NCBI GenBank assembly: GCA_020048755.1
Contig: JAIFMD010000060.1
Span: 1-43,899 of the forward strand
Length of the DNA: 43,899 nucleotides
DNA from: Spirochaetota bacterium
Lineage (GTDB): Bacteria > Spirochaetota > Spirochaetia > Treponematales > UBA12059
Direction: 5' to 3'
Positions 20,587 through 32,968 of this stretch are shown piece by piece; the first letter of the stretch is position 1; each line of letters starts with the position of its first letter. Both the position numbers and the translations under genes were made by a program. The notes under the pieces were generated by a model that worked only from the letters and a program-made list of their open reading frames with translations, searched no databases and had not been told where the DNA came from.

Positions 20587-21573
20587 GTGGCCACTATCGA
20601 AACAACGTTTCTTGGGCTTGCATTGCAGAGTCCGATCATCGTCGGAAGCAGCAGCCTGACGGGACAGGCCAGGACTATCGCGGAACTAGCGAAAGCGGGA
20701 GCAGGGGCGGTGGTCCTGAAATCCCTGTTCGAGGAGCAAATCCTGAACGAGGCAGCCCGGGAAGCCGGCAGGGGGGGCGTGGTCTACGGACACGATGACC
20801 TCGATGGTTTCGTCTCGTACTACACTAAGAAGCACTCGATAAGCGAGTACATCGGGTTGATCAAGGCCAGCAAGGCAGCCAGCCCCATTCCGGTCATTGC
20901 AAGTATCAACGCAATCAGCAATGGTGAATGGAAGAGCATAGCCTCCGAGATCGCTGCGGCCGGGGCTGATGCGCTCCAGCTCAACTTGTTCGTGAACCCC
21001 TTCGATGAAAATCGAAGCGCGGACCAACTTGAAGCTCTCTATACGGATATCGTCCGGAGCGTCAAGGCTGTGTGTTCCATCCCGCTGGCCGCGAAGATCG
21101 GTCCCTACTTCACCGCAATCCCGCGCATGGTCAGGGCGCTCGCACAAGCCGGAGCGGACAGTGTCATACTCTTCAACCGCTACCAGAGCCCTGACATTGA
21201 CATCGACAAGCTGGCTTTCCACACGGCTCCAGCCATCAGCTCGGCGGGCGAATACGTCCAGGCCCTGCGCTGGGTATCGCTCGTTTCCGGCTCTGCCGGC
21301 GTTCCCGTCATCGGTGCCACGGGCATCCATGACGACCAGGCGCTCATAAAGATGCTGCTGGCAGGCTCACCGGCTGTAGAGGTGGTCAGCACCGTGCTCC
21401 GCAACGGCCACAAGCAGATTGGCGCCATGAACAAGGGCCTGTCCGACTGGATGGATGCCCACGGGTACACCAGCATCGCAGCCTTCAGGGGAGCAATGGC
21501 AGGCAAGGCACCCGCGGACCGCGCTTCGCTGGAACGGTTCCAGTACATCAAGACCTTCGGTGATGCAAACTGA
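20587..21573 (+). CDS. Dihydroorotate dehydrogenase-like FMN protein
   Basis: Class 1 DHOD-like TIM barrel: LGLALQSPIIVGSSSLT...VVLKSLFEEQI...PLAAKIGPYFTAIPRM...VPVIGATGIHDDQALIKMLLAGSPAVEVVS; GTG start after GAGGAGG. Confidence 0.87.
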   Translation: MATIETTFLGLALQSPIIVGSSSLTGQARTIAELAKAGAGAVVLKSLFEEQILNEAAREAGRGGVVYGHDDLDGFVSYYTKKHSISEYIGLIKASKAASPIPVIASINAISNGEWKSIASEIAAAGADALQLNLFVNPFDENRSADQLEALYTDIVRSVKAVCSIPLAAKIGPYFTAIPRMVRALAQAGADSVILFNRYQSPDIDIDKLAFHTAPAISSAGEYVQALRWVSLVSGSAGVPVIGATGIHDDQALIKMLLAGSPAVEVVSTVLRNGHKQIGAMNKGLSDWMDAHGYTSIAAFRGAMAGKAPADRASLERFQYIKTFGDAN

Positions 21574-21649
21574 TGGATTCACACACTGATCTATTTTGGA
21601 TGCGCAATCCAATACATATAGATACTCGAACTCTATGACAGGGGGCTCC

Positions 21650-22147
21650 ATGAAATCGAGAAACGGACTGCCTTTCCTCATCGCCGCGCTTGCCGCCGTC
21701 TGGCTGCTGGTAACCTCGAGTGTGCGGCTGGATGAACTGGCCGTCGGGGCACTCGCGGTGCTGGTCGTAGCGCTGGCAGTGAGGAAACTATCCGGCGTTT
21801 TTGCCGGGATACGCTTTACACCCAGGTCCGCGGCCTTTGCGGTCGTCTATGTGCTCATCTTCCTCAGGGAGCTGGTCAAGGCAAACCTGGATGTTGCATT
21901 GCGGGTTCTGAACCCGGCCCTGCCTATCAGGCCAGGCATCGTTGAAGTCAGAACCGGGATGAAGTCTCCCCTGGGCAAGCTGTTGCTGGCCAACTCCATC
22001 ACGCTGACGCCCGGCACGCTGACGCTGGACGTGCAGGAAGACCGGATGTACATCCACTGGATCGATGTGAAGGGGCAGGATATAGAAGGCGCGACGAAAG
22101 CCATAGTCACCGCCTTTGAAGGCACGCTCAAGGAGGTGGTTGAATGA
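21650..22147 (+). CDS. Mrp/Mnh antiporter subunit E-like (MbxA-type)
   Basis: VLIFLRELVKANLDVALRVLNP...LLLANSITLTPGTLTLDVQEDRMYIHWIDV is MnhE/MrpE signature. Confidence 0.92.
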   Translation: MKSRNGLPFLIAALAAVWLLVTSSVRLDELAVGALAVLVVALAVRKLSGVFAGIRFTPRSAAFAVVYVLIFLRELVKANLDVALRVLNPALPIRPGIVEVRTGMKSPLGKLLLANSITLTPGTLTLDVQEDRMYIHWIDVKGQDIEGATKAIVTAFEGTLKEVVE

Positions 22148-22398
22148 TCCTGACCATTTCGCTGGCCCTGATGGGCCTCGCAGCGCTCCTGACCATCATC
22201 CGCCTGCTCCGCGGCCCTTCGGCCTTTGACAGGCTCGTCGCATCCGATGTACTCGCGGTGATCTCCACGGCCTTCCTCGCCGTATTCAGCGTCATGTCGG
22301 ACACGGTGTTTTTCATGGATGTAGGAATCGTCAACATCATCCTGGGCTTCATCGGCGTGGTGATGATAGCCCGCTTCCTCCAGGGGGTCATGAAATGA
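22144..22398 (+). CDS. Mrp/Mnh antiporter subunit F-like (MbxB-type)
   Basis: Small MrpF-like protein: IRLLRGPSAFDRLVASDVLAVIS; 4-nt overlaps on both sides. Confidence 0.92.
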   Translation: MILTISLALMGLAALLTIIRLLRGPSAFDRLVASDVLAVISTAFLAVFSVMSDTVFFMDVGIVNIILGFIGVVMIARFLQGVMK

Positions 22399-22718
22399 CG
22401 ATAGTCGGCAATTTTTTCATCCTTCTGGGCAGCGCCTTCCTGGTACTCGGCGGGCTCGGGCTCCTGCGGATGCCAGATGTGTACAACCGGCTGCAGGCGG
22501 GCACAAAAGCTTCGACGCTCGGTGCGATGAGTGTGCTGTTGGGCAGCGCCTTCCTGGCTCCTGGCATCGCGACTAAAGCGGTGCTCGTCATAGCGTTCAT
22601 AGCCCTGGCCAACCCCATATCCTCGAGCACCATAGGACGGAGTGCCTACAAGGCAGGCGTACCGCTGGCGCCCGTAAGTGTGCGGGACGACCTTAAAGAC
22701 AAGGAGAGCAACGCATGA
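22395..22718 (+). CDS. Mrp/Mnh antiporter subunit G-like (MbxC-type)
   Basis: LGSAFLVLGGLGLLRMPDVYNRLQAGTKASTLG is the MnhG signature. Confidence 0.93.
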   Translation: MTIVGNFFILLGSAFLVLGGLGLLRMPDVYNRLQAGTKASTLGAMSVLLGSAFLAPGIATKAVLVIAFIALANPISSSTIGRSAYKAGVPLAPVSVRDDLKDKESNA

Positions 22719-23035
22719 CGACCTGGATCGTACTTTTCATCAGCGTACTCCTGATCACCATGGCCCTGGCCGCGGTATTCAGCCGCTCGCTTGCCTCGGC
22801 GGTAATCATACTGTCCACCCTGAGCCTCTTCGCTGCGCTGCTGTTTGTGCTGGTCGCAGCTCCCGATGTGGCCATAACCGAGGCAGCCATAGGCTCGGCG
22901 CTGACCACGGTGGTCTTTGTGCTGGCCCTGTACCGCACCAAGGATGCACCGTCCGCCGACAGCCGCTCGCCCAAGAACATGGCCGACGAAAGCGGAAATG
23001 CGGCCAGATCAGTGCAGGAGGTGCCTCATGCGTAA
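22715..23035 (+). CDS. MbhD/DUF4040-type subunit of Mrp-like module
   Basis: SLASAVIILSTLSLFAALLFVLVAAPDVAITEAAIGSALTTVVFVLAL. Confidence 0.87.
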   Translation: MTTWIVLFISVLLITMALAAVFSRSLASAVIILSTLSLFAALLFVLVAAPDVAITEAAIGSALTTVVFVLALYRTKDAPSADSRSPKNMADESGNAARSVQEVPHA

Positions 23036-23762
23036 ACTCACCGGACTGCTCCTGATGGGCGGGTTCGTGCTGTACCTGGTTGCGCTGGTTCCCGGCATGT
23101 TTGCGCCGGAAACGCCGGTCTCCCTCGAATCAATAGGCAAGGACATCATCGCGACGACGGAGCGTGTAAGCGGCTCGGCCAATGTGGTTACCGCCATCGT
23201 AGTACAGTACCGCGGCCTCGACACCCTGGGCGAGGTGACGGTGCTGTTCGTAAGTGCCCTCGGAGTCGCCATCCTCGCATCGGGCTTCAAGGACAATGTA
23301 TTCAAGACAATGTTCGCGGCCGACGACGGCGGTTTCGTGCTGCAGTATGGGGGACGGTTCCTCATGCCCTTCATCGTGCTCATAGGCGTGTACATCATAG
23401 CCCATGGACACCTGTCACCCGGAGGCGGTTTTCCGGGCGGTGTGCTCATAGCCACGGCGGTGTTCATCGTCATCCTGACCGGTGAATCGGTGAAAATACC
23501 GCACCGCCTGCTGTCACTGCTTGAAGGAGCCGCGGGGCTGGGCTTCATAGGCCTCGGCGCGCTTGGCTTTCTGGGTGCGGATCAATCCTTCCTTGCAAAC
23601 ACCTTGCCCAAAGGCGAATTCATGACCCTGTTCAGCGCGGGCTTCATACCCTTCATCTACGCGATGGTGGGCATCAAGGTAGCAAGCGAACTGACCACCG
23701 TGGTCGCGGTCCTTACGCAGGCTCCGCACCATGACACTGCAAAGGAAGAGGGGCGCCCATGA
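23028..23762 (+). CDS. MnhB-like subunit with N-terminal MbhE-like region (apparent fusion)
   Basis: N-terminal MbhE-like helices; C-terminal GRFLMPFIVLIGVYIIAHGHLSPGGGFPGGVLIATA = MnhB; start moved to ATG 23028. Confidence 0.87.
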   Translation: MRKLTGLLLMGGFVLYLVALVPGMFAPETPVSLESIGKDIIATTERVSGSANVVTAIVVQYRGLDTLGEVTVLFVSALGVAILASGFKDNVFKTMFAADDGGFVLQYGGRFLMPFIVLIGVYIIAHGHLSPGGGFPGGVLIATAVFIVILTGESVKIPHRLLSLLEGAAGLGFIGLGALGFLGADQSFLANTLPKGEFMTLFSAGFIPFIYAMVGIKVASELTTVVAVLTQAPHHDTAKEEGRP

Positions 23763-24112
23763 TCAGCACGGCCCAGATTCTGTACGGTACCTCGTTCGCG
23801 CTCATCATCATCGGCCTGTACGCGGTGCTGAGCCAGCGCAACCTGATACGCATCGTCATCGGCCTCAACGTGGCGGATGTCGGCATCAACATACTCCTCG
23901 TAACGCTCGGCTACATTGAAGGTGGCCGGGTACCCATATTCGCGCCGGGCCAGCCGACGACAAACTGGGTGGATCCCGTACCGGCGGCCCTCGTACTGAC
24001 GGCCATCGTCATCGGCTTCGGTGTAACGGCGCTGATGCTCACCCTTGTCATGCGCCTCTATGCCAAGTACGGCACCATCGACGCATCGCGCATCCGGGGG
24101 CTCAAATGGTAA
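23759..24112 (+). CDS. MnhC/NuoK-like subunit (MbxG-type)
   Basis: IGLYAVLSQRNLIRIVIGLNVADVGINILLV...DPVPAALVLTAIVIGFGVTALML. Confidence 0.94.
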   Translation: MISTAQILYGTSFALIIIGLYAVLSQRNLIRIVIGLNVADVGINILLVTLGYIEGGRVPIFAPGQPTTNWVDPVPAALVLTAIVIGFGVTALMLTLVMRLYAKYGTIDASRIRGLKW

Positions 24113-25542
24113 GCCCGATGCTTTTCATCATCGCCCCCCTCGCGGCAGCCTTCCTCATGATCTTCATCAACAGGCGCGGTGCAGCGCTCGCACTCTCGCT
24201 GCTGACACCCGCGGGCCTGGCAATACTGGGTGTCTCATGGCTGCCGGCAACGCTGGTACGGGCACAGCCCATCGTGGTGGCCTCGATCAAGGCACCGCTG
24301 GGCATACCGCTGAGCCTCGACGCGCTGGGAGCGGGCATGGCCATCCTCGTGGCCGTAAGCTCCGTCCTCATCGTGCTGTATTCGTCGTCCTACATACACA
24401 GGGGACATCACGAAGTGCGATATTACGCAGTGGTGATGATACTCCTGACCTCAGCCTTTGGCCTGGTGCTGACGCGGGACATCTTCAACCTGTTCGTGTT
24501 CTTCGAGATACTCTGCATCTCCTCCTACATACTCGTATCCTGGGAGCAGAGCGGCGCGGCCCTCGAGGCGTCGTTCAAGTACATGGTGCTCGGTTCCATC
24601 GGTTCGACCTTCCTGCTCGTATCGATAGCCCTGGCCTACAAGGCCGCAGGAAGCCTCGCGATGGCCGACATAGCCGTAGCCTTCGATTCAGCTCCCAGAG
24701 GCTACGTGATCATGGCCGCTGTAACCTTCCTCTTCGGAGTGGGTGTTGAAGCGGCCATCTTCCCGGTCAATTCATGGCTGCCCGATGCCCACTCGTCTGC
24801 CCCCAGTTCGATCAGTGCGATACTGTCCGGTTTCGTCATAGAACTGGCCCTCGTCGTAACGTTCCGGGTGCTCAACACGGTATTCGCGGCTGTAGACGTG
24901 CTGCCGCTGCTGCAAATCATAGCGATTGCAGGCGTCCTGGTCGGCGAGTTCTCGGCCTTTGGCCAGAAAGACCTCAAGCGCATGCTGGCGTATTCCAGCA
25001 TCAGCCAGATAGGCATCATGCTGTTCGCGCTCTCTCTGGGCAGCACGGCGGGTGCCCAGGCGGGGCTGTCGCACCTGCTGATGCACGCCGGCGCAAAATC
25101 GGCGCTGTTCCTGATCGCAGGCTACTTCATACTGCGCACGGGCAGCAGGCTGATAGATGACTACACGGGCCTGGGTTATCGCATGCCGGTCTCGGCGGCC
25201 CTGTTCGGACTGGCGGCCCTGTCGCTCGTTGGCGCACCACCGTTGTTCGGTTTCTTTACCAAGTTCCAGATACTCGCGGCTGCCGCCGCAACCGGAGGGG
25301 GCCTGGCCTGGTTCGGCATAGCCAGCATCCTGTCCGGCACCGTGCTCGAGGCGGTCTACCTGTTCCGGGTCATCCGGGTGCTGTTCGCGCAGCCGGCTGA
25401 ACGTTCCCGAGTCGAGATGGACCTGCCGGCCCTCGTTTCGGTGGCGCTGTTTACCGCTCTGGTCGTGTTCGGAGCGTTGCTCCTGCCGTCCTTGTCGTCA
25501 ATGATCGGCCCGATCGCCGACGGGCTTGCGACCCTGCACTGA
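24106..25542 (+). CDS. MrpD/NuoM-like antiporter subunit 1 (MbxH-type)
   Basis: RDIFNLFVFFEILCISSYIL, LPDAHSSAPSSISAILSG, GAPPLFGFFTKFQIL. Confidence 0.94.
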   Translation: MVSPMLFIIAPLAAAFLMIFINRRGAALALSLLTPAGLAILGVSWLPATLVRAQPIVVASIKAPLGIPLSLDALGAGMAILVAVSSVLIVLYSSSYIHRGHHEVRYYAVVMILLTSAFGLVLTRDIFNLFVFFEILCISSYILVSWEQSGAALEASFKYMVLGSIGSTFLLVSIALAYKAAGSLAMADIAVAFDSAPRGYVIMAAVTFLFGVGVEAAIFPVNSWLPDAHSSAPSSISAILSGFVIELALVVTFRVLNTVFAAVDVLPLLQIIAIAGVLVGEFSAFGQKDLKRMLAYSSISQIGIMLFALSLGSTAGAQAGLSHLLMHAGAKSALFLIAGYFILRTGSRLIDDYTGLGYRMPVSAALFGLAALSLVGAPPLFGFFTKFQILAAAAATGGGLAWFGIASILSGTVLEAVYLFRVIRVLFAQPAERSRVEMDLPALVSVALFTALVVFGALLLPSLSSMIGPIADGLATLH

Positions 25543-25551
25543 TAGGAAGGT

Positions 25552-27420
25552 ATGATGTATACACAAGCATTATTGGCGCTTCCGCTGGTAGGATTCGTCG
25601 TCACTATCGTGCTCCAGGGTACAGCCAGGCGCTCCCCGGCCATACTGAAAACATGGGCATTGCTTGCCTTCGTCGCCATGGCAGCAGTCGCCACGCTCGC
25701 ATTTCCAGAAATCGGCGACACGTACACTGGCCCGATGGTTTTTGGTTCGTCACTCAGCATCGGCCTGACCGACCTCTCCTGGTGGTTCGTCATGATGATA
25801 GCCGGGATCACCGTGCTGACAAGTTTCTTTACCCTCGGAGCACTCCGCGATACAGGCACCTACCCGATGTATTACGGATGGCTCTTCCTCAAGGTCTTCG
25901 GCATGCTGGGCCTCGTGATGTCCCGTGACCTCCTGACATTCTTCATCATGTGGGAAATCATGAGCTGGGCTACGTACTTCGTCATGCAGCAAGGCAAGGA
26001 AGAGGGGCGTGAAGCAGCGCTGGGCTACCTCGTCTATGCCATCGTAGCCGGCATGGTTCTGCTCGGCGGTGTGCTCTTCATACACCAGAGCGCGGGCAGC
26101 TTCGAGTTTGCCGTGATCACTGCATATATGGCTAAGGCTGAATTCGGCATCCTCCTTGCCTCGGTGCTGCTCGTCCTGGTCCCGTTCCTGATCGAAGCGG
26201 CCGTGTATCCAGCTCATGGCTGGCTACCGTCTGCGTACGCATCGTCTGAAACATCGATGACGGCATACCTGTCGAGCATCTCGACACGCATGGGACTCTT
26301 TGGCCTCATACTGTTCGTGTTCTCGGTGTTCGGCCTCAAGGCAATAGACCGTATCGGCATATCGGCCCACCTGAACCTGCGCACGATACTGCTCGTGCTT
26401 GCGGCTCTGACAGCGGTGCTCCCGACATACACCGCTCTGTTCCAGCACGATGCCAAGCGGCTCCTGACCTGGCACTCGATAGGCCAGGGCGGCTACATGC
26501 TCCTCGGACTGGCGACAGCGTCGACCCTTGGTACCGCCGGCGGACTCATGCACATCTTCAACTACATGACCTATGTGGCGCTGATCATCTTCAGCATCGC
26601 TGCAGTGGAGTACCGTACCGGGACGACCAACCTGAACAAGCTTGGCGGCCTGATTGTCAAGCAGCCAGTCGCCTTCCTGGGCATGCTGTTCGGCATCATA
26701 GGCCTGGCCGGCATCCCGCCGATGAACGGCTTCGTATCCAAGTGGTTCATCTACCGGTCACTGATCCTGGGCGGGTACCCGTTCATAGCGCTGGCGGCCT
26801 TCATCGCAACGGTCGGCACTATCATGTCTGTGTACAAGCTGATCCACAACACGTTCCTCGGGCAGCTGCCGGAGCGCTACAACGACGTGAAGGAAGTGGG
26901 CCTGCTCATGCAGTTGCCCATCTGGATACTGATGGGTGTGGTGTTCACTACGGGCGTCTTCCCGGGGCTCATCCTGCAGTGGATCGCAAAAATCCAGGTT
27001 GGTATGGGCATCGTACCGATAGCATGGACCCTCGGCGGAGTGGCCAGGGAAGCCGGCGACCTCAACATGATGGTCGTAACCGCCGTGTTCATGGCCACCT
27101 TCGCCGTCGGTGCAATCATCTTCTTCATAGGTGGCAAGCGGCGGATCGTGTCTCAATACGACAACTACGCGGCGGGGCATTTCCTCAACAAGGATGTGCC
27201 GTACAACTTCAACTACAACTTCTACAGCGCTTTCGACCACATCTTCGAGAAGCTGTACCATGACGCACCAGTGCAGACAGCCATACGCAACCTCGGACGC
27301 TTCGTCAGGATGGTAGCCGACTACGTCCGCAGGTTCTTCACCGGCCAGATCAACACCTACGCGGCCTACTACGTAGCCGCGGTCATCATCGCGCTGGCGA
27401 TCCTCAAGGAGATCCCATGA
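25552..27420 (+). CDS. MrpA/MrpD/NuoL-like antiporter subunit 2 (MbxH'-type)
   Basis: SRDLLTFFIMWEIMSWATYFV, YPAHGWLPSAYASSETSMTAYLSS, GIPPMNGFVSKWFIY; long C-terminus. Confidence 0.92.
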   Translation: MMYTQALLALPLVGFVVTIVLQGTARRSPAILKTWALLAFVAMAAVATLAFPEIGDTYTGPMVFGSSLSIGLTDLSWWFVMMIAGITVLTSFFTLGALRDTGTYPMYYGWLFLKVFGMLGLVMSRDLLTFFIMWEIMSWATYFVMQQGKEEGREAALGYLVYAIVAGMVLLGGVLFIHQSAGSFEFAVITAYMAKAEFGILLASVLLVLVPFLIEAAVYPAHGWLPSAYASSETSMTAYLSSISTRMGLFGLILFVFSVFGLKAIDRIGISAHLNLRTILLVLAALTAVLPTYTALFQHDAKRLLTWHSIGQGGYMLLGLATASTLGTAGGLMHIFNYMTYVALIIFSIAAVEYRTGTTNLNKLGGLIVKQPVAFLGMLFGIIGLAGIPPMNGFVSKWFIYRSLILGGYPFIALAAFIATVGTIMSVYKLIHNTFLGQLPERYNDVKEVGLLMQLPIWILMGVVFTTGVFPGLILQWIAKIQVGMGIVPIAWTLGGVAREAGDLNMMVVTAVFMATFAVGAIIFFIGGKRRIVSQYDNYAAGHFLNKDVPYNFNYNFYSAFDHIFEKLYHDAPVQTAIRNLGRFVRMVADYVRRFFTGQINTYAAYYVAAVIIALAILKEIP

Positions 27421-28328
27421 ATTCCGGTATAGGCCTCATAGTCTGGATCATAGCCTACCCGTTCGTAAGCTTCTCCCTGGGGGTACTGCTCGGCGGCTAC
27501 GGCCGCAAACTGACAGCGCGCATCCAGCGCCGTGTCGGGCCGAGCTGGATACAGCCATTCTTCGACGTGGTAAAGCTGATGTCCAAGAAGACAAACGTGA
27601 GCCACGGCTACATGCACGACGTGGCCATGATGATGCTCGTCGGCGGTACCCTGCTGACTATGTATTTCGTCCCCGTTCCCGGCTTTCACTACTTCAGCCA
27701 GTTTGGTGACTACATCGTCATCATGTACATCCTCCTCGTACCGCCGCTGGGCATGGCCCTCGGCGTGGGCCAGACAGCCAACCCCAACGGCAGCATCGGC
27801 ATTGCGCGCGCGCTCCAGATGCTCGCAGGCTACGAGGTGACCTTCGTCCTGACCTTCATAGGCTTTGCGATGAAGAACGGCACGACGAGCATGTACGAAC
27901 TGATGATGATCCAGCAGTCCGGCGGCGTCGCTACCTGGGGTCTGGTTACCAACCCGCTCCTGGGCGTGGCCGCGCTGTTCTGCCTGCAAGGCATGATGAA
28001 CGAGAAGCCCTTCGAGGTCGTCATTGCCCCGCACGAGATTGCTACCGGCCCGATGACTGAAATGGGCGGCAAGTACCTCGGAATGATGTTCATCCAGCAC
28101 CTTATCAATCTGGTCGTCGAGCTGACCATCTACATGAACCTGTTCCTTGGTGGCGCCACCAACTGGTTTGAGTACGTGGCCAAGCTGTTCGCGCTGTTCA
28201 CGCTCGTCATGAGCGTCAACGCCGTCTACGGCCGTTTCAGGACTGATTCGGCCCTGCGCTTCTTCTGGAAACTCCCCCTGCCAATGGCGGCCCTGGGTGT
28301 CATCCTCATCATGATCAACGGAATATAA
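27417..28328 (+). CDS. NuoH/MbhM-like membrane subunit
   Basis: GGYGRKLTARIQRRVGPSWIQPFFDVVKLMSKK, NEKPFEVVIAPHEIATGPMTEMGGKYLG. Confidence 0.95.
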   Translation: MNSGIGLIVWIIAYPFVSFSLGVLLGGYGRKLTARIQRRVGPSWIQPFFDVVKLMSKKTNVSHGYMHDVAMMMLVGGTLLTMYFVPVPGFHYFSQFGDYIVIMYILLVPPLGMALGVGQTANPNGSIGIARALQMLAGYEVTFVLTFIGFAMKNGTTSMYELMMIQQSGGVATWGLVTNPLLGVAALFCLQGMMNEKPFEVVIAPHEIATGPMTEMGGKYLGMMFIQHLINLVVELTIYMNLFLGGATNWFEYVAKLFALFTLVMSVNAVYGRFRTDSALRFFWKLPLPMAALGVILIMINGI

Positions 28329-28342
28329 GGGAGGCTGTCCAT

Positions 28343-28930
28343 ATGGCCGAGAAAGAGCTGACCCAGCGGACTGCCTGGGACAAGGTGCTCGCGAATCTTA
28401 GAAAAAGAAGCCTCTGGATGCTTCACTACTGCACCGGCTGCGGCGCGGTGGAATTGCCGCCGACGATGACGTCGCGTTTCGACATGGAACGGTTCGGCAT
28501 CATGCCGATGGTCACGCCGAGGCAGGCCGACATACTCCTCATAACCGGCTACCTGAGCGTAAAAACACTCAAGCGCGTCATCCTCATCTACGAGCAGATG
28601 GTAGCGCCCAAGTATGTCGTTGGTTTCGGCAGCTGCACGATCAACGGCGGCATGTACTGGAACAGCTACACCACGATCAAGGCTCTGGACCGCTACCTGC
28701 CCGTCGAGATGTACCTTGCAGGCTGCATGCCCAGACCGGAGGCCATCATATCGGGCTTCAATTCCCTGATAGACAAGATCGGCAAGGGAGAGGCCAACAG
28801 CTGGAAGGATTATTACGAGAACTACGAGTTCTACAAGAAGAACCAGGACCACGTGTTCGGCGATATCGAGACCCACCATGACGTGCCGGCTGACGGAAGG
28901 TACTTCGGGATACTGGAGGCTAAACGATGA
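28343..28930 (+). CDS. NuoB/MbhJ-like [4Fe-4S] small subunit
   Basis: HYCTGCGAVELPP, VVGFGSCTINGGMY, YLAGCMPRPEAI: four proximal-cluster Cys retained. Confidence 0.95.
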   Translation: MAEKELTQRTAWDKVLANLRKRSLWMLHYCTGCGAVELPPTMTSRFDMERFGIMPMVTPRQADILLITGYLSVKTLKRVILIYEQMVAPKYVVGFGSCTINGGMYWNSYTTIKALDRYLPVEMYLAGCMPRPEAIISGFNSLIDKIGKGEANSWKDYYENYEFYKKNQDHVFGDIETHHDVPADGRYFGILEAKR

Positions 28931-29535
28931 ACGCACAGACCCAGGCCCCAACCACAAGCCGGCCGCCAGCCGCCACTGGAGCGCCCCGGATGACCGAGGC
29001 CCTTGTTTCAGCCATCACTGCGGAGACGGGCATCGCGACATTCCGCACCAAGAGCCCGCGAAGGATAGAAGGCACGGTCCAGGCAGACGCGCTGCACTCC
29101 TTTGCTGCCGCCCTGCGCTCTCGGGTTGGCTTCGAGCACCTGTCTGCCATCAGCTGCGTTGACTGGATAGCCGAGGGCGAGTTTGAACTCGTCTACCATT
29201 TCTGGAGTTACCGCGACAGCCACCTGGTATCCGCCAGGGTGCGCATACCCAGGGAACCCGGATCCATGGCGACCATAACCGACTTGTGGTTGCCTGCCTC
29301 GTTCTTCGAGCGCGACATACACGAGTTCTACGGCGTGGTGTTCCAGGGCAACACCGATCTGGAGCGCTACATACTCTCTGACTGGAAGGGGCCGCCCCCG
29401 ATGCGCAAGGACTTCTCCAGCCGTGACTTTGCCCACGAGCACTTTACCTTCAAGGATTACGAGCCGACCTGGGACGAGCTGATCGATGGTGGCTACCACG
29501 GCCAGAAGAGACAAGGGGAGGGATCAGATGAGTAG
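28927..29535 (+). CDS. NuoC/MbhK-like subunit
   Basis: LWLPASFFERDIHEFYGVVFQGNTDLERYILSDW...PPMRKDF. Confidence 0.93.
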   Translation: MNAQTQAPTTSRPPAATGAPRMTEALVSAITAETGIATFRTKSPRRIEGTVQADALHSFAAALRSRVGFEHLSAISCVDWIAEGEFELVYHFWSYRDSHLVSARVRIPREPGSMATITDLWLPASFFERDIHEFYGVVFQGNTDLERYILSDWKGPPPMRKDFSSRDFAHEHFTFKDYEPTWDELIDGGYHGQKRQGEGSDE

Positions 29536-30688
29536 CATCATCACCGCCAACGACGGCCGGGACATCATGCCCGGAGCCAATGCCCCCGAGAACCGTGAAT
29601 ACAACATGTTCATCGGCCCCAACCACCCCGGCATCGAGGGCAACTTTGCCCTCAAGCTGGTTGTGGAAGGCGATACCATCGTCAGGGCAAAGACCGAGGC
29701 CGGCTTCCTGCATCGTGGCTTCGAGAAACTCATGGAAGAGCGACTGTTCATACAGAACATCGCGATAGTCGCGCGCATCTGCGTGCCGGACCCGGACCCG
29801 AATGAAGAGAACTACGCCCGCGCGATAGAGACGATCGCCAATATCGAAGTGCCGCGCCGCGCGCAGTTCATCCGCGTCCTGGTGCTGGAACTCTCGAGGA
29901 TAGGCAGCCACCTCTTCACCTTCGGCGGCCATGCCGGAACCATAGGCCTGTACACCCTGCCCAACTGGAGCATCTCCGACCGCGACCGTGTCCTTGAGCT
30001 GTTCGAGGAACTGACCGGGGGCCGCGTGTACCACATCTACAACATGCCAGGCGGCGTGAGGCGCGACCTGCCCAGCGGCTTCAAGCAACGCGTGCTCGAC
30101 GTTATGTCATACATCGAGGAAAGGCTGCCTGAATACGACGACATCTTCTTCAACAACAAGATACTCCTCAATCGCGCCCAGGGCATCGGCGTGCTCCCGA
30201 AGGACAAGGCGCTCGAGTGGGGCGCTACGGGCCCTGACCTCCGGGGCGCAGGCTTCGCCCACGACGTCCGCAAGGACGATCCGTACGAAGTCTACGGCGA
30301 GCTCGAGTTCGAAGTTCCGACGGGAGAAGCGAGCGATGCGTACAGCCGCCTGATGGTCCGCCGCCGCGAGATAGAACAGTCCATCAGCATAGTCCGGCAA
30401 GTACTGGACAAGATGCCTGAAGGACCTGTCTGGAACAAGCAGCCCAACCCGCTCAAGTGGCGGGTCCCGGCCGGCGACGCCTACGTGCGCACCGAGAGCA
30501 GCAAGGGCGAATACGCCTACTACATGGTCAGCGATGGTGGTATACGCCCCTACCGCGTCCATGTCCGCGGCGCCAGCGTTACCCACGGCGTGCACATCCT
30601 GGAACACATGCTCACGGGCGCCCGCATCGAGGACGCATCGCAGATCATGTTCAGCATGGACGCCTGTCCGCCCGAAGTGGATCGATAG
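29528..30688 (+). CDS. NuoD/MbhL-like large subunit, Mbx-type with half of the NiFe cysteines missing
   Basis: GPNHPGIEGNFALKLVVEGDTIV...HRGFEKLMEER...RVPAGDAYVRTESSKGEYAYYMVSDG; only Cys residues are in ARICVPDPD and MDACPPEVDR. Confidence 0.94.
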   Translation: MSSIITANDGRDIMPGANAPENREYNMFIGPNHPGIEGNFALKLVVEGDTIVRAKTEAGFLHRGFEKLMEERLFIQNIAIVARICVPDPDPNEENYARAIETIANIEVPRRAQFIRVLVLELSRIGSHLFTFGGHAGTIGLYTLPNWSISDRDRVLELFEELTGGRVYHIYNMPGGVRRDLPSGFKQRVLDVMSYIEERLPEYDDIFFNNKILLNRAQGIGVLPKDKALEWGATGPDLRGAGFAHDVRKDDPYEVYGELEFEVPTGEASDAYSRLMVRRREIEQSISIVRQVLDKMPEGPVWNKQPNPLKWRVPAGDAYVRTESSKGEYAYYMVSDGGIRPYRVHVRGASVTHGVHILEHMLTGARIEDASQIMFSMDACPPEVDR

Positions 30689-30697
30689 GAGATACCG

Positions 30698-32908
30698 ATG
30701 GCCATCGACAAGATAGGAAGCATTTTAAGACCCTTTACCGCGCTCAAGCACATCGCGGAAAAGCCGGATACCATCGACGTCCCCAGGCATTACCGGCCGG
30801 CGGCAGAGCGGTACCGTGGTTTTCATGTGAACGATATGGAAAAATGCATAGGTTGCGGCACCTGCGCCGAGATCTGCGACAACGATGCCATCCGCATGGT
30901 GCCAGTCAAAGGCAAGGAGGCCGGAGTCGGCAAGACCCCGTACCGGCCGGCCATAGACTACGGCCGTTGTTGCTGGTGCGCGCTCTGCGTCGACGTATGT
31001 ACGACCAACTCACTGTCCATGACACGGGAATACACGCACATCAGCCCGGACACCAATACCTTCTTCATCCTTCCGGACGAGAAGGGCATCCACGAAAAGG
31101 AATTCCCCACGGGCTGGCATGCCGATGACACGATCAACTTCCTGGACCTGAAGCGGGTTCCCATGGAGGCCCTTTCGGCTGAGGAGCGCGGGGATTCCTT
31201 CATCGAGATAATCAAGGGCTTCAGCAAGGAGCAGGCGAGGAAAGAAGCCAGTCGTTGCGTATCATGCGGACTCTGCACGGCTGCCTGCCCAGCGCACATG
31301 AACATTCCCGAGTACATCGACGCCATCTGGAACGATGACCTTACCGAATCAGGCAGGCAGATGTACAAGACAAACCCGCTGCCCGATGTCTGCGGCCGCA
31401 TCTGCACCCACGCGTGCGAGACCGCGTGCAGCATAGGCGTCCGCGGAGAACCAATCAGCATCCGCTGGCTCAAACGCTACGCTATGGACCAGATACCTGC
31501 CAGCCAGCTGGACACCCTCCTTACCCAGAACGTGGTCAAGCAGGGTTCGCAGAGCGTCGCCGTCGTCGGTGCCGGACCGGCAGGCCTTGCCGCCGCCTAC
31601 TACCTGGTGCTGATGGGATACAGGGTCACCGTATTCGAGAAGCACCCCAAGGCGGGAGGCATGATGCGGTACGGCATGCCCGAGTACCGCCTGCCCTATG
31701 AGGCGATTGACAAGGACATAGACTTCATCCTGTCGCTCGGCGTTGAACTGAAGACCGGCATCACGGTAGGCAAGGACCTGCCCCTCGATGCGGTCCAGAA
31801 GGATTTCGATGTCGTCATCATGGCCACCGGCTTTCACGGAGGGCGCAGCACCAGGGTTCCCGGAACAGATCACACCATGGTGTTCCAGGCCGTGGACCTC
31901 CTTGCGCGCATCACCAAGGGCGACAAATTTCCGGTTGAGAAGGAAATCGTAGTCATCGGCGGCGGCAACGTCGCCATGGACATAGCCCGCAGCCTCGCAC
32001 GCTTGCAGAAGAAGCAGTACGGCGAGGTCAGGCTCACCGTCACCTGCCTTGAAACCCGCGACATCATGCCTGCAGACGATGAGGAGATCGAGGAAGGCAC
32101 CGAGGAAGGTATCGTCTTCAAACCCGGGCGGGGTCCTGAGGAAATCATCATAGAAGACGGTGTCATCACCGGGCTCAAGACCAGCCGCTGTGTGCGGGTG
32201 TTCAATGACCAGAAGATGTTTGCCCCCGAGTTCGACAAGAATGACATAGAGGTATACAAAGGTGCCCAGATCATAGAAGCCATAGGCCAGGGACCCGAGT
32301 TCGATGTCTTTGCCCCCTTCACCGCATCACTTGAGATGGCCGGCAGGCGCATCAAGGTAGATGAGTACTTCCAGTCATCGCAGCCCTGGCTGTTTGTTGT
32401 CGGAGACATCATCAAAGGCCCCAACCTCATCACCGGTGTGGAGACTGGCCACCAGGCCGCGCTCGGCGTAGACTATTATCTGGGCAAACGCGCCAGGGAC
32501 GAGATAACCCGCATCGACGAGATGCTGGGCATCGCGCTGGCATTCCAGAAGGACCAGGTTGCACAGCTTGAAAAAGCACCGCGGTTGCCGGAACTCGCCG
32601 GTCTGCTCGCAATTGAGAAAACGAATCTGGGCATCGTGGAGGCTCTGCTCTCAGGCCGCAACACACGGATACACCTGCGGCAGGAACTGTCCCGCGTCAT
32701 GAGGCGCCGTGACTATGCCTACCTTGAAGCCCTGGCCCGGATTCCGGCAGGACCGGGTGCGGTCGAAGCGGTAGCGGTGAGGGCGAAGGCCGGCTTCCAC
32801 CTGTATACAGACATGCTTTTCCTTACGAAAAGCAAGGAACTCGAGTTTGCCATGGATACCCTGCGGGACCATTACCGCAGCCTGGCCGAGCGGTTCCAGA
32901 CCATGTAA
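30698..32908 (+). CDS. Fusion: NuoI/MbxN-type 2x[4Fe-4S] ferredoxin + GltD/NfnB-like FAD-NAD(P) oxidoreductase + uncharacterised C-terminal domain
   Basis: CIGCGTCAEIC and CCWCALCVDVC; GltD-type CVSCGLCTAAC...CGRICTHACETAC; FAD VVGAGPAGLAAAYYLVLMGYRVTVFE; NAD(P) VIGGGNVAMDIARS; one 736-aa ORF. Confidence 0.93.
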   Translation: MAIDKIGSILRPFTALKHIAEKPDTIDVPRHYRPAAERYRGFHVNDMEKCIGCGTCAEICDNDAIRMVPVKGKEAGVGKTPYRPAIDYGRCCWCALCVDVCTTNSLSMTREYTHISPDTNTFFILPDEKGIHEKEFPTGWHADDTINFLDLKRVPMEALSAEERGDSFIEIIKGFSKEQARKEASRCVSCGLCTAACPAHMNIPEYIDAIWNDDLTESGRQMYKTNPLPDVCGRICTHACETACSIGVRGEPISIRWLKRYAMDQIPASQLDTLLTQNVVKQGSQSVAVVGAGPAGLAAAYYLVLMGYRVTVFEKHPKAGGMMRYGMPEYRLPYEAIDKDIDFILSLGVELKTGITVGKDLPLDAVQKDFDVVIMATGFHGGRSTRVPGTDHTMVFQAVDLLARITKGDKFPVEKEIVVIGGGNVAMDIARSLARLQKKQYGEVRLTVTCLETRDIMPADDEEIEEGTEEGIVFKPGRGPEEIIIEDGVITGLKTSRCVRVFNDQKMFAPEFDKNDIEVYKGAQIIEAIGQGPEFDVFAPFTASLEMAGRRIKVDEYFQSSQPWLFVVGDIIKGPNLITGVETGHQAALGVDYYLGKRARDEITRIDEMLGIALAFQKDQVAQLEKAPRLPELAGLLAIEKTNLGIVEALLSGRNTRIHLRQELSRVMRRRDYAYLEALARIPAGPGAVEAVAVRAKAGFHLYTDMLFLTKSKELEFAMDTLRDHYRSLAERFQTM

Positions 32909-32930: not shown

Positions 32931-32968
32931 GCCCGCCTGGAGACCATTGGTCTTCAGGCGGGCCTTTT
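32931..32968 (+). terminator. Intrinsic terminator at end of Mbx-like cluster
   Basis: GCCCGCCTGGAGACC-ATT-GGTCTTCAGGCGGGC followed by cTTTTT; 15-bp stem with one wobble. Confidence 0.92.

Follow-up and report, generated by a model that had tools for sequence, protein, structure and literature searches.

The DNA analyzed here is a 43,899-nt stretch of a Spirochaetota bacterium contig (JAIFMD010000060.1), referred to below as the window. It carries an operon for a predicted ion-translocating complex of the Mbx/MBS type, the last gene of which joins a ferredoxin subunit to a GltD-like flavoprotein module. We re-annotated the region from scratch; coordinates are those of the whole window, and all features given for it lie on the + strand. 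Thirteen intact mbx/MBS genes were found at 21650-32908, in the order MnhE, MrpF, MnhG, MbhD, MbhE+MnhB, MnhC, H, H', M, J, K, L, and N-fusion. A first-pass annotation had claimed this 13-gene layout with two large antiporter-like subunits, and all of the genes were recovered, open, and in the claimed order. It had also described most junctions as overlapping by 4-8 nt, which is true of 9 of the 12. Since the remaining gaps are only 9, 14, and 9 nt, the genes look like one tightly packed operon.

The operon begins with mbxA (MnhE-like; 21650..22147; PF01899, E 6e-40), whose start is most likely the ATG at 21650 rather than the TTG at 21596 chosen by the open reading frame (ORF) caller. It continues with mbxB (MrpF-like; 22144..22398; PF04066, E 7.8e-12), mbxC (MnhG-like; 22395..22718; PF03334, E 6.2e-24), mbxD (MbhD; 22715..23035; PF13244, E 1.9e-19), mbxE/F, a single ORF combining MbhE and MnhB (23028..23762; PF20501 and PF04039), and mbxG (MnhC/NuoK-like; 23759..24112; PF00420, E 4.4e-26). 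The antiporter-like subunits are mbxH (24106..25542; best PDB match 6u8y_H, E 8.7e-71) and mbxH' (25552..27420), for which 6u8y_X was the only PDB match below 1e-40. These are followed by mbxM (NuoH-like; 27417..28328; PF00146, E 5.7e-49), mbxJ (NuoB-like; 28343..28930; 6u8y_J, E 7.7e-68, aligned without gaps), mbxK (NuoC-like; 28927..29535; PF00329, E 6.6e-28), and mbxL (NuoD-like; 29528..30688), which scored 385 bits against 6u8y_L versus 173 bits against MbhL. The mbxL start is most likely 29528, correcting an earlier call.

The fusion gene (30698..32908) encodes 736 aa, comprising an MbxN/NuoI ferredoxin (residues 1 to ~118), a GltD-like FAD/NAD module (~150-600), and a ferritin-like helical tail (601-736). 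It is one 2,211-bp ORF with no internal stop. Pfam placed a Fer4_7 pair at 49-104, Fer4_20 at 167-267, and Pyr_redox_2 at 286-578, in agreement with the earlier call of a single ferredoxin plus GltD/NfnB-like ORF. The fusion is not a sequencing error because the same architecture recurs in other assemblies (L039, L040, and L041, with 79%, 77%, and 66% identity and 748, 750, and 759 aa, respectively). All cluster cysteines were invariant in 73 of 73 fusions, 9 of them in the ferredoxin domain and 8 in the GltD N-domain. This recurrence and conservation rule out an assembly error or missed stop between the ferredoxin and FAD halves.

The ferredoxin-GltD architecture is already present in NCBIfam as PRK13984 / NF010590, a "putative oxidoreductase". 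The window fusion scored 854.7 bits over positions 8-598, below the curated 946-bit cut-off, which was passed by 0 of 149 Spirochaetota genomes and 1 of 14 control genomes, possibly T. maritima. Complexes named Mbx have been reported in T. maritima (PMC9431562), Caldanaerobacter (PMC4596419), Thermoanaerobacter (PMC3608648), and vent symbionts (PMC11636981). The window protein resembles the bacterial fused form, including the Mbx of T. maritima and vent symbionts, in its ferredoxin-GltD layout along 611 family positions and in its place after mbxL, which is shared by most loci. It differs, however, in having an extra C-terminal helical domain and a predicted NADH-type cofactor site, and at 855 bits it falls short of the family cut-off.

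Within the Spirochaetota, 12 copies of the fusion were found in 11 of 149 genomes, and these adjoin other mbx genes wherever the contig allows. An MbxL profile scan of GTDB genomes yielded 80 loci, to which loci of the phylum were added; lineages are given as in record titles. The fusion and mbxL occurred at the same locus in 71 cases, usually less than 50 nt apart, from Spirochaetota, Gamma-, Beta-, and Alphaproteobacteria, Bacteroidota, Chlorobiota, Calditrichota, WOR-3, and Neomarinimicrobiota. Restriction of the fusion to the present genome is ruled out by these loci. Most of the 19 mbxL loci without a fusion stop at a contig edge. Two of the 19 have a free MbxN instead (L054 of Atribacterota and L097 of an archaeon), and 6 have other or no recognizable genes after mbxL, with the fusion located elsewhere in the genome in all 3 genomes checked. 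In three Beggiatoa-type genomes (G153, G152, and G155; loci L096, L100, and L107), the operon is broken up and the fusion gene lies away from mbxL, so that the proposal of a fusion always beside mbxL fails there. Of the 12 MBS-type loci in the archaeal phylum to which L097 belongs, 11 were unfused, 10 with a free MbxN of ~155-180 aa and 1 with a shorter fragment. In the loci sampled, the fused form is the bacterial norm and a separate MbxN is the archaeal norm. The fusion had been considered the notable part of the system; the domain-architecture search found it to be real and recurrent but not unusual, as it is the usual bacterial arrangement and has an existing family. MbxL distances correlated with those of both fusion halves (r 0.92 and 0.87, with 0 of 2000 shuffles as high), as expected for a fixed subunit, with shared ancestry contributing.

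The MBS of P. furiosus (PDB 6u8y), which has been shown to reduce polysulfide (PMC7684303), was the best PDB match for each of MbxL, J, H, and H'. The window MbxL has just two cysteines, C85 and C380, equivalent to MbsL C85 and C385, and the hydrogenase partner cysteines are absent. C85 is kept in 89 of 91 loci and C380 in 87 of the 89 loci having a residue there. In a maximum-likelihood tree, the window MbxL fell inside the MBS clade (support 99), apart from the CxxC hydrogenases and Nuo/Fpo. A [NiFe] membrane-bound hydrogenase (Mbh) is ruled out, as two of the four NiFe-ligand cysteines are missing and the window lies apart from the CxxC group in the tree; the first-pass assignment to an Mbx/MBS-type complex rather than a hydrogenase is upheld by the tree, the cysteines, and the PDB ranking. 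In MbxJ, C30, C33, C98, and C128 correspond to MbsJ C25, C28, C93, and C123. The MBS structure has a MbsJ cluster with three ligands, C28, C93, and C123, and a non-ligand C25 (PMC7684303). As that structure predicts, the non-ligand position is free to vary: C33, C98, and C128 are invariant across the family, whereas C30 is variable and is Gly in 16 of 17 Bacteroidota-type complexes. The window complex shares with P. furiosus MBS the 13-subunit layout, the two antiporter-like subunits, the two L cysteines, and the three J cluster cysteines, and differs in that MbxN is a separate ferredoxin subunit in MBS and is fused to a GltD-like, predicted NADH module in the window. It shares with respiratory complex I a homologous hydrogenase-like arm, antiporter-like subunits, and, by prediction, NADH as donor. 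Unlike complex I, the window complex would receive NADH through the GltD module instead of NuoEFG, gives no sign of quinone, and retains the MbxL cysteines that complex I has lost.

The flavoprotein module resembles NfnB, GltD, and StnC in fold (5jca_L, E 7.8e-43), in its FAD and NAD(P) motifs, and in eight cluster cysteines. The FAD-proximal cluster position 259 is Lys in 73 of 73 fusions, in place of the Glu ligand of bifurcating NfnB; K259 of the window aligns with StnC K170 and T. maritima NfnB E117. The GltD domain of StnC, with that Lys, does not bifurcate (PMC10482914), and the fused module is likewise predicted to be non-bifurcating. Unlike NfnB, the window module has no NfnA partner gene in its operon and is linked both to a NuoI ferredoxin and to a membrane complex; unlike StnC, it has no NuoG domain on its chain according to Pfam. 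The fusion keeps the FAD and NAD(H) motifs, but in the window CLE takes the place of the YRR motif with which NfnB binds the NADP phosphate. Among DsrL proteins, NADPH enzymes have YRR and NADH enzymes lack it, a division backed by kinetics (PMC7596348). Because the change to CLE is of the kind that marks NADH-type DsrL, the window clade is predicted to use NADH and not NADPH. The cofactor site is acidic in nearly all proteobacterial and most Spirochaetota fusions, and reads RRR in those of Bacteroidota, Calditrichota, Chlorobiota, WOR-3, and Neomarinimicrobiota and in three Spirochaetota; the RRR lineages, Bacteroidota and relatives, are predicted to be NADPH-type. The earlier suggestion that the peripheral arm is wired to NAD(P)H is thus retained, as an NAD(P)H flavoprotein is fused to the ferredoxin arm, and is sharpened to a predicted NADH link for the window clade. 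AegA and DsrL also carry a ferredoxin and a GltD-like domain in one chain, and DsrL has a similar NADH/NADPH site split; however, both are soluble with no tie to an ion-pumping complex, and DsrL has an additional C-terminal ferredoxin domain.

Some fused copies depart from this pattern. The sole fused locus of the archaeal phylum, L130, groups with a spirochaete copy, L029 (10459-13439), and the two constitute a second fused variant whose MbxL lacks both remaining cysteines (RINV...). Their pairing across a spirochaete genome and an archaeal assembly could reflect either transfer or contamination. L035 (9944-13985), from the window's own family, is a divergent fused complex with a long tree branch, an MbxL without both MBS cysteines, and Gly at the C30 position of MbxJ. 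In L038 (212-2233), the fusion has a ~57-residue insertion inside the NAD-binding region.

The charged channel axis of MBS comprises E138, E219, K250, H330, and K393 of MbsH and E128, K217, K248, H336, and K399 of MbsH', of which 8 of 10 are kept or conservatively replaced in the window. MbxH E246 replaces MbsH K250, and in MbxH', E215 replaces K217 and R246 conservatively replaces K248. Glu occupies the MbsH K250 position in 9 of 9 members of the window clade and the MbsH' K217 position in 10 of 10, both being buried channel positions, and Proteobacteria keep Lys at these positions in 28 of 28 and 30 of 30 loci, respectively. Directly upstream of mbxA lies a DHOD-like flavoprotein gene of the PRK07565 type (20587..21573; NF005741, E 1.6e-102), a possible 14th member of the operon. 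A gene of this kind neighbors mbx in another 9 loci, upstream of the operon in some and downstream in others, and is absent from most mbx loci. In the window, four relatives, and three Bacteroidales it lies ahead of mbxA, and in Calditrichaceae and Melioribacteraceae it comes after the fusion. The linked copies fall in two clades, which suggests repeated association of the DHOD-like gene with mbx. A second DHOD-like paralogue (37% identity) is present elsewhere in the window genome (G000:C47). The protein is a possible extra redox partner.

Taken together, these data favor, with a probability of roughly 60%, a bacterial MBS/Mbx-type ion-translocating complex with a built-in, non-bifurcating NADH dehydrogenase as input arm and sulfane or polysulfide as substrate. 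The sequences themselves show the operon, the fusion, the MBS-type site residues, the cluster ligands, the cofactor-site split, and the co-inheritance; the substrate, cofactor, direction, and coupling ion of the complex are inferred. NADH would give electrons to the FAD of the GltD-like domain, from which they would pass through the two [4Fe-4S] clusters of that domain and the two of the NuoI/MbxN domain to a fifth, the three-cysteine [4Fe-4S] cluster of MbxJ at the membrane, and on to sulfane sulfur. The chemistry at MbxJ/L/M would be coupled to ion movement via MbxM, H, and H'. The host probably determines the direction in which the complex runs. In fermenters such as the window spirochaete, the complex may perform sulfur-linked NADH oxidation, possibly with ferredoxin feeding the same arm; in sulfur-oxidizing Proteobacteria, an ion gradient may drive sulfide or sulfane oxidation and the reduction of NAD+. 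The context of the window genome, which is 65% complete, fits a fermenter with [FeFe] hydrogenases, and an RnfC-like match in it fell just below the cut-off. Several points weigh against this reading. NADH to polysulfide spans only ~50-60 mV by textbook potentials, little for pumping several ions, and it is because the energy from NADH alone is small that ferredoxin co-feeding or reverse running is proposed. Hosts such as Flavobacteriales and Hyphomicrobiaceae suggest that sulfane may not be the substrate everywhere, the co-variation of MbxL with the fusion is inflated by shared ancestry, and the replacement of two MBS channel lysines by Glu in the window clade means that pumping may differ or be lost.

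Those same glutamates lend themselves to another scenario, in which the NADH-linked pump of the window clade is of a separate kind, so far undescribed, that combines an NADH dehydrogenase of its own, a DHOD-like redox partner, a second, NuoEFG-independent evolutionary route from NADH to the complex I arm, and antiporter-like subunits both re-tuned for a different ion or stoichiometry; we consider this rather unlikely. The first-pass annotation had left the choice among a complex-I-like or Rnf-like pump and a sulfane reductase. An Rnf-like pump, as proposed earlier for archaeal and Thermoanaerobacter Mbx, would pass electrons from ferredoxin to the NuoI domain, reduce NAD+ at the fused GltD module, and use the energy drop to export ions. 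The retained FAD and NAD(H) motifs would suit it. However, electrons exchanged by ferredoxin and the fused flavin could bypass the MbxJ cluster, the presumed coupling site of the superfamily. Fused complexes nevertheless retain J and L sites of the MBS type, and P. furiosus MBS reduces polysulfide (PMC7684303). The Rnf-like part of the earlier proposal is therefore less likely, and we consider it rather improbable.

It is also unlikely, and slightly more so, that the acceptor in the window clade is unrelated to sulfur, for example an organic disulfide, a quinone, or some compound processed together with the DHOD-like protein. Channel residues unlike those of MBS would fit such a change, as would the DHOD-like gene beside mbx in several lineages, since dihydropyrimidine dehydrogenase is built from a GltD-like and a DHOD-like part. 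The gene is missing from most mbx loci, though, the MBS-specific J and L residues are kept, and sulfur induces mbxA in T. maritima (PMC9431562). Least credible is an electron-bifurcating or confurcating MBS, in which electrons from NAD(P)H would part at the GltD flavin, some going to ferredoxin and the others to the membrane arm. The module shares its fold with NfnB, a bifurcating subunit, and the Arg contacting N5 is kept (NfnL R201, equivalent to R331), but that Arg is also present in StnC and so does not discriminate, and bifurcation is disfavored because the FAD-proximal ligand is Lys, as in non-bifurcating StnC.

If the NADH-linked sulfane reading is correct, a link between NADH and the complex I arm arose twice, and in this second instance bacteria used a GltD module where complex I has NuoEFG; individual lineages then retargeted that module between NADH and NADPH. 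The complex would offer a natural experiment in how complex I evolved, sulfane being the proposed acceptor. Genes in sulfur bacteria, vent symbionts, and Bacteroidota labeled NADH-quinone oxidoreductase, glutamate synthase, or putative oxidoreductase would be re-annotated as one complex, and testable predictions would follow for cofactor, absence of bifurcation, and channel residues. New in the present analysis are the Lys ligand in all fusions, the NADH/NADPH site split, the retention of MBS-type J and L cysteines, and the helical bundle and channel glutamates of the clade, several members of which have a DHOD-like gene next to mbx. No prior description of the fusion, PRK13984, the Lys ligand, or the cofactor split was found in the open-access literature, and an earlier account elsewhere is possible.

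Two features had been overlooked by the first-pass annotation: the third domain of the fusion protein and a strong terminator-like hairpin. The C-terminal extension (residues 601-736; 32498..32908) is a degenerate ferritin/rubrerythrin-like four-helix domain. Tails of ~130-165 extra residues were found only in the clade of the window and its relatives L030 and L039-L044. The tail of L030 matched Rubrerythrin (PF02915, E 3.7e-8), and the window copy gave no match. Both structure models showed a four-helix bundle, and a fold search returned mostly ferritin-like matches that fell short of significance (best E 0.06). By eye, the window copy has lost most of the iron ligands that such a domain would have, and for that reason our guess is a structural or docking role. 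A promoter scan gave matches no more frequent than chance. The operon is closed by the hairpin at 32931..32963, which resembles an intrinsic terminator, with a 15-bp stem containing 11 G-C pairs followed by CTTTTTG.

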